A DNA stretch of 64,000 nt, from assembly GCA_019745975.1 (NCBI GenBank), contig JAIESQ010000055.1, forward strand, positions 1 through 64,000, read 5' to 3'. The notes beneath the pieces were generated by a model. It did no database searches, was not told where the DNA came from, and saw nothing but the letters and a program-made list of their open reading frames with translations. The first letter of the stretch is position 1. Every line of letters starts with the position of its first letter. The translations under genes and the position numbers were made by a program. Positions 45,764 through 48,700 of this stretch are shown piece by piece. Source of the stretch: Pirellulales bacterium. GTDB taxonomy: Bacteria > Planctomycetota > Planctomycetia > Pirellulales > JAEUIK01.

Positions 45764-48700
45764 CTAGTGAAAATCGCGCGAGCGGACGCGCAGCGCCTGG
45801 ATGCGCTCGCTCATGTCGTCGATGCGGTTGACCACGACATGGATCACGCGGCCTTGTCGTTCGAGCTTGCCGTGCGCGATCATCGCCGTGGCGGTGCGGG
45901 CCGCGCGATGGTAGCGCAGCCAGATCTCGGAACGCACGATCAGGTTGGCCTGGCCGGTCTCGTCTTCCAAGGTGACGAACGTGATCCCCTTGGCGGTGCT
46001 GGGGCGCTGCCGCATCAGCACCACGCCGGCCACGCGCACATGACGCCCCACGGGCCAGGTGGCCAGTTGCTCGGAGCGGAGCACTTTGAGCTGATCGAGA
46101 TCGACGCGCAGAAAGCTGATCGGGTGGGCGCGCAGCGACAGGCCGGCCGCGCGATAGTCGGCTCGCACTTCGGCGGCGGGTGACAGCGCCGGAAGATCAA
46201 CCGGCTCGTCGATCGTCGCGTCGTCTTGCCTGGCGAACAGCGGCAATTCGGGCTCGGCGGCCAGCGATTGCCAGAGTGCGTTGCGACGATCGAGCTGCAA
46301 AGAACCAAACGCATCGGCCGCGGCCAGTCGCGACAGCACGGCCTGACTCAGTGCGGCGCGGCGCGCCAAGTCGGCGATCGAAGTAAACGGCCCGTCGCGC
46401 CGCGCGGCGACGATCGCCTCGGCCATTTCTTGCCGCAAGCCGGCGATCATCCGCAGTCCCAGACGTAGGGCAAAGACCTCTCCCCTCTCCCCTTGTGGGT
46501 TTGCTCGGACTGCTTGCAGGTCCGAGCTCAACAAATCAGGGGTTGGGGGTGAGGGGTAACAATAACCAGCACTGCTGGACAAGCCAGCAGTGGCACCCGA
46601 ATCACCAACAACTCGCTCCAGTGTGCAATCCCAGTCGCTATGGTTCACGTCGATCGACCGCACTTCAACCCCGTGCTGCCGGGCGTCGCGCACCAGTTGT
46701 GCCGGCGCGTAGAAGCCCATCGGCTGGCTGTTCAACAGCGCCGCGGTGAAGGCCGCCGGGTGGTAGCGCTTGATCCATGAAGAGACGTAAACCAATAGCG
46801 CGAAGCTCGCGGCGTGCGACTCGGGAAAACCATACTCGCCGAAGCCGCGCAATTGCTCGAATACCCGTTCGGCGAACTCGGCCTGCAGCCCGCGGGCTTG
46901 CATCCCTTCGATCAACCGGCGGCGGAAGTTGTCGATGATGCCCGGTCGCCGCCAGGCGCCCATCGCGCGGCGCAGTTGGTCGGCTTCGCCGGGCGAGAAG
47001 CCGGCCGCCACGATCGCCAGCCGCATCGCTTGTTCCTGGAAGATCGGCACGCCGAGCGTTTTGTGCAGCACTTCGCGGATCGTGTCGTTGGGGTATTCGA
47101 TCGGCTCTTCTCCGGCGCGGCGCCGCAAGAAAGGGTGGACCATGTTCCCCTGAATCGGGCCGGGGCGCACGATCGCGACTTCGATCACCAGGTCGTAGAA
47201 CGAGTGCGGCCGCAGACGCGGCAGCATGCTCATCTGGGCGCGGCTTTCGATCTGGAACACGCCGACGGTATCGGCGCGGCAGATCATGTCGTACACGCGG
47301 GGGTCTTCGGCCGGCACCGTGGCCAGCGACCAGACCTGGCCCGTGTGCTTTTCGATCAGGTCGAAGGCGCGGTGGATCGCCGTGAGCATGCCCAGCGCCA
47401 GGCAATCGACTTTCAAGATGCCGAGCCGATCGAGATCGTCTTTGTCCCACTGGATGACGGTGCGCTCGGGCATGGCGGCGTTTTCGATCGGCACCAATTC
47501 GTCGAGCGGACCGCGCGTGATTACCATGCCGCCGACGTGCTGCGACAAGTGCCTTGGGAAGCCCTGAATCTCGTGCACCAGTTGGAGCAACTGGCGGCCG
47601 ACGGGGGACGCCGGATCGAGGCCCGCTTCCGTGGCCCGCTCGGCCAACTGATCGCCGTCGCGATAGCCGTCGATGACTTTCGAAAGGGCGTCGACGCGGT
47701 CGAGCGATAGGCCGAGCGCCTTGCCCACGTCGCGCACCGCCGAGCGTGGGCGGTAGGTGATCACCTCGGCGGTGATGCCGGCGCGGTCGCGGCCGTACTT
47801 TTCGTAGACGTATTGCAGCACCTCTTCGCGGCGCTCGTGCTCGAAATCGAGATCGATGTCGGGGGCTTCGTTCCGTTCGCGGCTCACGAAGCGTTCGAAC
47901 AGCAAGTCGATCCGGCTGGGATCGACCGACGTCACGCCCAGGGCATAGCACACAGCCGAGTTGGCCGCCGAACCGCGTCCCTGGCACAAGATGCCCCGCC
48001 CGCGCGCGAACTTCACGAGATCCCAAACCGTGAGAAAGTAGGCCTCGTACTTGAGCTCAGCGATCAGTGTCAACTCGTGTTCGATCAGCCCGCGGACTTT
48101 GTCGGGGATGCCATCGGGATAGCGTTTGCGGGCCCCCAGCCAGGCGAGCTTGCGCAGGTATTCGATCGGCTGCTGACCGGCGGGGCAGAGCTCTTCGGGA
48201 TATTCGTAGCGTAGTTCGTCGAGCGAGAACTGGCAGCGGCCGGTGACTTCGAGCGTGCGTTCGATCGCGCCGGGCAGTGTACTAAACCGCGTGGCGATCT
48301 GGTCGCGCGGTTGCACGTAGCGCTCGGCGTTGGCGAACAATAGCCCCTCGGCCTCGGCGACCGGCACGCCATGGCGGATCGCGACCAAGACGTCGTGCAG
48401 AGACTGACGCGCGGGGATGTGATAGTGGACGTCGCCGGCGGCCACCAGTGGCACGCGCGAGCGTTTCGACAAATCGAGCAAATGAGCGGCGTGCAGATCG
48501 TCGTCGGGGCCGGCCACAAGTTCTGCCAGCAAGTAACAGCGGTCGCCGAAGATTTCGCGATAGCGAGATACATCGCCGAACGGATTCGACTGCCCATCGT
48601 GGCGCGCGACGGCATTGGCGGAGCCAGTGGCACCAGAGAATCGGCGAATGGTATCGCCACCGTTAAGGTCGGCTGCTCGATTGTCAAATTCGCGAGGTCG

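Follow-up and report, generated by a model that had tools for sequence, protein, structure and literature searches.

The dnaE2 gene in the 64,000-nucleotide stretch of Pirellulales DNA analyzed here (the window) contains palindromic DNA within its coding sequence. This raises the question of whether the stretch is polymerase sequence in its own right or repeat DNA captured in frame, and, if the latter, how it came to lie in an enzyme that remains intact. An earlier, sequence-only reading had counted three palindromes in about 135 bp, adding about 45 residues to the protein. The features that bear on the question are as follows.

45764-49141, minus strand: dnaE2, an intact gene for an error-prone C-family DNA polymerase (NF004225 and Pfam matches)
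46472-46615, minus strand: expanded linker RVVGDSGATAGLSSSAGYCYPSPPTPDLLSSDLQAVRANPQGERGEVF, 48 residues, between the beta strands CTLE and ALRL (alignments with 30 relatives and with 80 DnaE2s)
46480-46557, minus strand: second palindromic element of about 78 bp, with outer arms CCCCTCTCCCC/GGGGTGAGGGG around the hairpin GCTCGGAC/GTCCGAGC, read as YPSPPTPDLLSSDLQAVRANPQGER
46558-46568, minus strand: 11-bp spacer separating the REP from the ~78-bp element
46569-46598, minus strand: REP unit GGGTGCCACTGCTGGCTTGTCCAGCAGTGC, read as (S)GATAGLSSS(A)
16051-16092, no strand assigned: intergenic palindrome with the loop GGACAAGC and some of the arm sequence in common with the REP (sequence comparison)

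Counted from MPDPAPAKRR, the dnaE2 product has about 1125 residues, and the ORF stays open to 49270. The insert is free of stops and keeps the frame, as had been claimed, and the protein is full length: it matches the error-prone DnaE profile NF004225 with 1445 bits over residues 67-1168 (cut-off 939) and carries PHP, DNA_pol3_alpha, DNA_pol3_finger, HHH_6 and OB in the expected Pfam order, while DnaE1 is a separate gene (G000:C141, where G000 is the host genome). On the minus strand dnaE2 reads DVNHSDWDCTLE-RVVGDSGATAGLSSSAGYCYPSPPTPDLLSSDLQAVRANPQGERGEVF-ALRLGLRMIAGL, the middle part being the linker; the extra in-frame segment of the sequence-only reading is real, and the non-homologous linker as a whole has 48 residues. 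A search of phage records gave no match.

In a local structure model (191 residues, 92 sequences, mean pLDDT 85.5), the fold of which matches PolIII alpha structures, the linker is the turn of a beta-hairpin whose strands, residues 836-839 and 886-889 (numbered from window position 49129), flank the insert. The flanks are modeled with pLDDT of 97-98 and the insert with 48-60, and the insert is probably a disordered loop of about 40 extra residues. A full-length DnaE2 model was poor (mean pLDDT 56) and was left unused. In the alignment, the equivalent of the linker in E. coli PolIII alpha is the turn NDDG, immediately ahead of the (HhH)2 motif.

Two repeats of the host genome, a draft of 7.0 Mb in 204 contigs, make up most of the linker. 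The first is a REP of 30 bp, within the 20-40 bp of single-hairpin REPs, with a 9-bp stem (arms 46570-46578 and 46584-46592, 100% paired), a 5-nt loop, an unpaired 5' GGGTGC and an energy of -10.3 kcal/mol as DNA. The further copies that capture would call for are present in hundreds: the pattern CTGGACAAGCNAGNAGTGGC, with up to two mismatches, has 340 genomic matches, against one for a reversed-pattern control. The consensus of 134 copies is TTGGGT-GCCACTGCTGGCTTG(T/C)CCAGCAGTGC, with a second, inverted copy often lying downstream, and about a quarter of 105 sampled sites hold such inverted pairs, as in BIMEs and REPINs. The dnaE2 copy equals this consensus at all 30 positions, which suggests from the sequence that it was inserted recently. 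Its tag, GGGT, is 94-99% conserved per position and places the REP outside both the GTAG superfamily and the CGTC superfamily, which includes RPE-4/6.

The second repeat is a single element in which an inner hairpin (arms 46503-46510 and 46520-46527, 8 bp, 100% paired) is nested in an outer inverted repeat (46482-46492 and 46546-46556, 11 bp, 91%); three other copies lie in the genome at 79-89% identity. The hairpin z-scores are -3.4 for the REP and -4.4 for the ~78-bp element. All the palindromic arms seen in the sequence-only reading are therefore present, but what it took for three separate units are two elements. It had also noted sequence, including an arm, shared between one palindrome and the intergenic repeat at 16051-16092. 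Only part of the sequence is common to both: this repeat was not recovered by the REP search even at 8 mismatches in 30, so that it is at best a distant cousin. It has the REP's loop on a different stem (CTTCT versus CTGCT) and may be an older or separate REP subfamily.

Could the stretch still be an ordinary low-complexity linker with chance palindromes, or an ancestral conserved one? Several long linkers of relatives are not repeats, as such an account would have it. However, the REP in the linker matches perfectly a consensus that recurs hundreds of times in the genome, and the linkers of relatives show no homology to this one; such an account has a negligible probability, and we rejected it; none of the 30 relatives or 80 DnaE2s examined carried a homologous sequence at the site. 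A pseudogene, or a repeat misjoined into the contig, is also very improbable. Assemblers fail at repeats and the genome is a draft, yet the ORF is open through about 1120 codons with every domain present, the host genome holds 18 other in-frame sites against two that break the frame, and captures at the same site are found in independent assemblies, including that of the isolate Reyranella sp. CPCC 100927.

Comparison across bacteria shows that the site itself varies. Among the 30 relatives aligned, which belong to the same order but to other genera, the DnaE2 linkers show no sequence similarity and measure anywhere between 2 and 102 residues, and many close relatives have only 2-8 residues. 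In 80 DnaE2s from several phyla the linker has 6-8 residues in about half and at most 10 in nearly two thirds. The expectation that most family members manage with a short linker here, of 2-8 residues, is borne out. The DnaE1 paralogue serves as a control from the same genomes: it has the homologous beta-hairpin before the (HhH)2 motif, but its turn is constant at a few residues (V.DGKI) in 12 of 12 genomes, the host included, whereas the DnaE2 turn is variable.

The linker DNA of each genome was searched against that genome, with G037, G021 and G030 searched singly. Within the order, seven relatives have multi-copy linkers (G009, G013, G019, G028, G037, G021 and G030). The G009 linker is a ~97-bp palindrome with about 20 copies at 92-98%, that of G021 (L106, G021:C8) combines at least three repeat families, and that of G030 contains two inverted arms separated by about 170 bp. 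Outside this set of relatives, linkers are multi-copy in a Phycisphaerae MAG, a gammaproteobacterial MAG, Reyranella sp. CPCC 100927, a Planctomycetia MAG and a Pirellulales MAG. Eight long linkers are single-copy and act as internal controls: five within the order (G038, G022, G057, G015 and G047) and three outside the relatives set that were not multi-copy in their own genomes. Within the order, the DNA hairpin z-score separates the two kinds completely, at -3 or below in 8 of 8 repeat linkers and above -1 in 9 of 9 others tested. In G002, a repeat-rich insert lies about 25 residues downstream of the turn.

In all, 13 genomes, counting the host, have repeats at this DnaE2 turn, with a different inserted sequence in each and always in frame. 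They span Planctomycetota, Gammaproteobacteria and Alphaproteobacteria, and the genomes compared are mostly drafts and MAGs, Reyranella sp. CPCC 100927 being an isolate genome. This turn has thus been occupied time and again, in independent events, by members of whichever repeat family the genome in question carries. The sequence-only reading had asked whether the insert is unique to this strain; the close relatives examined have no homologous sequence there, but the site is not unique, and the presence of other lineages' own repeats at the same turn strengthens the case for capture.

The host genome has 15 Y1_Tnp (HuH) matches. Three RAYT-like genes (L100, L102 and L104; G000:C138, C29 and C80) have inverted REP copies on either side, which is the geometry of a REPtron, and their proteins bear EHVH and YVHQNP motifs. 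They form one family, and in two of the three a REP closely precedes the likely start codon; it may be unusual for one genome to hold several genes of this kind. From this arrangement we infer that their products could move this REP. Cleavage of single-stranded REPs by the E. coli RAYT depends on a conserved GTAG tetranucleotide (PMC8266576); as the tag here is GGGT, recognition by these RAYTs is not a given.

We consider it likely that the REPs spread by transposition and that the insert was retained, mostly neutrally, in a permissive loop of DnaE2. A REP and a second palindromic repeat of the genome would have been inserted at the tip of the beta-hairpin adjoining the (HhH)2 DNA-binding motif. 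Single-strand transposition by the flanking RAYT-type HuH transposases would spread REP copies that could land anywhere, and selection would purge those hitting genes unless they were stop-free, a multiple of three in length and placed in a length-tolerant loop; the turn of DnaE2 would tolerate length where that of its replicative paralogue, DnaE1, would not. Since both elements are stop-free in the frame used and their total length keeps the frame, the polymerase would be translated with the extra loop at near-neutral cost, and the inserted peptide probably has little effect.

An alternative is that no transposase was involved and that the repeats were brought in while DNA was replicated or repaired, through template switching, microhomology-mediated copying or gene conversion between hairpins; we regard this route as rather unlikely. 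The ~78-bp element has no known mobilizer, the linker compounds two unrelated repeats (at least three in G021), and palindromes favor template switching. On the other hand, the REP occurs as discrete 30-bp units and inverted pairs and shows RAYT-flanking geometry at three loci, and in other genomes the insert is a complete element that retains the arms at its two ends, G030 with its inverted arms being an example.

Transposition with mostly neutral retention, the reading that we prefer, can also be set against the REPs in other genes of the host. Our census is a sample of 105 sites, biased toward near-consensus copies, in which genes were called by a codon model trained on the long ORFs of the window; this model called 87% of positions inside long ORFs in frame and missed dnaE2 itself because the second insert spoils one flank. 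Eighteen of the 105 sites are in-frame coding on both sides, one has coding sequence on the same strand in a different frame, and one keeps the frame but meets a stop. In the window, 59% of random positions were called in frame, and the copies are mostly intergenic; because 18 in-frame sites stand against about 61 expected, REPs within genes are strongly depleted, and those that remain are almost all in frame.

With dnaE2 and these 18 sites in unrelated intact genes, several of them within Pfam domains, the REP resembles a protein-coding palindromic element in its pattern of insertion. The genes that bear it include those for IleRS, a lactate permease, an Lhr helicase, a fused E1 dehydrogenase, a sugar ABC ATPase, DUF1553 proteins and an ImuB-like protein with two insertions. 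The lactate permease (L128, G000:C195), a full-length membrane protein, has its REP in frame at residues 324-336, inside PF02652 (residues 53-594). The Y-family ImuB-like protein (L058, G000:C163), which we take to be the partner of DnaE2, has a REP pair at residues 88-113 and a single REP at 228-240, both in frame. In IleRS the REP occupies a loop of which most of the 15 relatives compared have only a short version. The IleRS of G013 (L270, G013:C151) has a different, unrelated repeat-like extension in the same loop, so that same-site capture may extend beyond DnaE2.

All 18 in-frame REPs use one frame of three per orientation (sense GATAGLSSS, antisense ALLDKPAVAP), although the REP core is open in all six frames; under equal frame likelihood the use of only two has p about 2e-8. 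Either the retention or the insertion of REPs is therefore not blind to frame, and simple neutrality is not a full explanation. Inverted pairs that lock both frames together may explain part of the restriction.

This restriction is among the observations that a functional insert would account for. REP-encoded peptides might tune DnaE2 and its partner ImuB, for example by changing how the protein touches DNA or the clamp beside the (HhH)2 motif and thereby the mutation rate, and so be selected. Di Nocera et al. (2013; PMC3733652) proposed the same on the grounds that repair genes are over-represented; the turn adjoins a DNA-binding motif, and the ImuB-like gene of the host also holds REPs in frame. 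However, the inserted sequence differs by lineage with no common composition or length, 2-8 residues suffice in many close relatives, and unrelated proteins (the lactate permease, the E1 dehydrogenase and the DUF1553 proteins) also have in-frame REPs; we consider a selected function unlikely. A little less probable still is the broader proposal that repeat capture in DnaE2 and ImuB is a recurrent, selected modification of the mutasome, in which a variable disordered loop alters activity and insertion or retention is limited by frame.

As a phenomenon, REPs within genes are not new, since in-frame palindromic elements are known from Rickettsia (PMC10969869) and a REP-tagged DnaE2 was reported in 2013. 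The comparison with Rickettsia in the sequence-only reading was right in kind; it regarded a planctomycete parallel in a translesion polymerase as new, but REP insertion into DnaE2 as such had already been described. Di Nocera et al. (2013; PMC3733652) describe intragenic REPs in several species, with many of them in genes for replication and repair, list DnaE2 as one of the REP-tagged proteins and report REPs in planctomycetes. Only for recB, in two Xanthomonas species, do they give an approximately shared REP position, those of other genes being at different sites. Their system resembles ours in its in-frame REPs in DNA synthesis and repair genes, with RAYT association described there for GTAG families; it differs in that here 13 genomes carry unrelated repeats at one DnaE2 turn, and our REP is tagged with GGGT. 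RPE-1, RPE-4 and RPE-6 (Ogata et al., cited in PMC3733652 and PMC10969869) likewise lie in frame in many unrelated protein genes, but in these citing accounts RPE-4/6 have a CGTC tag and no known transposase, and are set apart from our GGGT-tagged, RAYT-flanked REP by tag and flanks. The REPIN/BIME and REPtron systems (PMC3116915, PMC8266576) share with it the high copy number (about 340 here), head-to-head pairs, a hairpin with a 5' unpaired tag and HuH/Y1 genes between inverted copies; here, however, the tag is GGGT rather than GTAG, the host is a planctomycete, and about a sixth of the sampled copies lie in coding sequence. Within the open-access literature, which we covered in part, and as far as we found, the capture of unrelated repeats at the same site of one enzyme across classes and phyla appears to be new. 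The same goes for the control that DnaE1 provides, for the restriction to two frames and for the presence in this order of a REP/RAYT family with a GGGT tag.

In-frame REP insertions have so far been noted mainly as single-genome curiosities. The DnaE2 turn offers a natural record of short mobile DNA turning into protein; one homologous turn, with a paralogue control in the same cell and at least 13 genomes from several classes and two phyla that have captured unrelated repeats, makes it possible to test the old question of whether mobile palindromes feed new protein segments or merely survive where they are harmless. It can now be asked which loops take up repeats, what frames are used and whether the repeats alter an enzyme that governs the mutation rate. 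Annotators of such genomes should bear in mind that a long variable linker is often a repeat.

The turn is not the only permissive place in DnaE2. The PHP-domain loop of the same gene (48580-48649, minus strand) has about 23 extra residues (IRRFSGATGSANAVARHDGQSNP), and its DNA is weakly repeat-like: the segment tested, 48560-48665, has only weak matches elsewhere in the genome, at 80-90% over short stretches, and we do not claim it as a repeat. Further repeat-like inserts lie near residues 596 and 912 of the G021 dnaE2 (L106). The PHP-domain loop, at about residue 160, also varies in length in relatives, with 5 of 17 long versions palindromic, and the dnaE2 of G009 (L067, G009:C116) has the same ~97-bp palindrome in frame twice, in the linker and in the PHP-domain loop.
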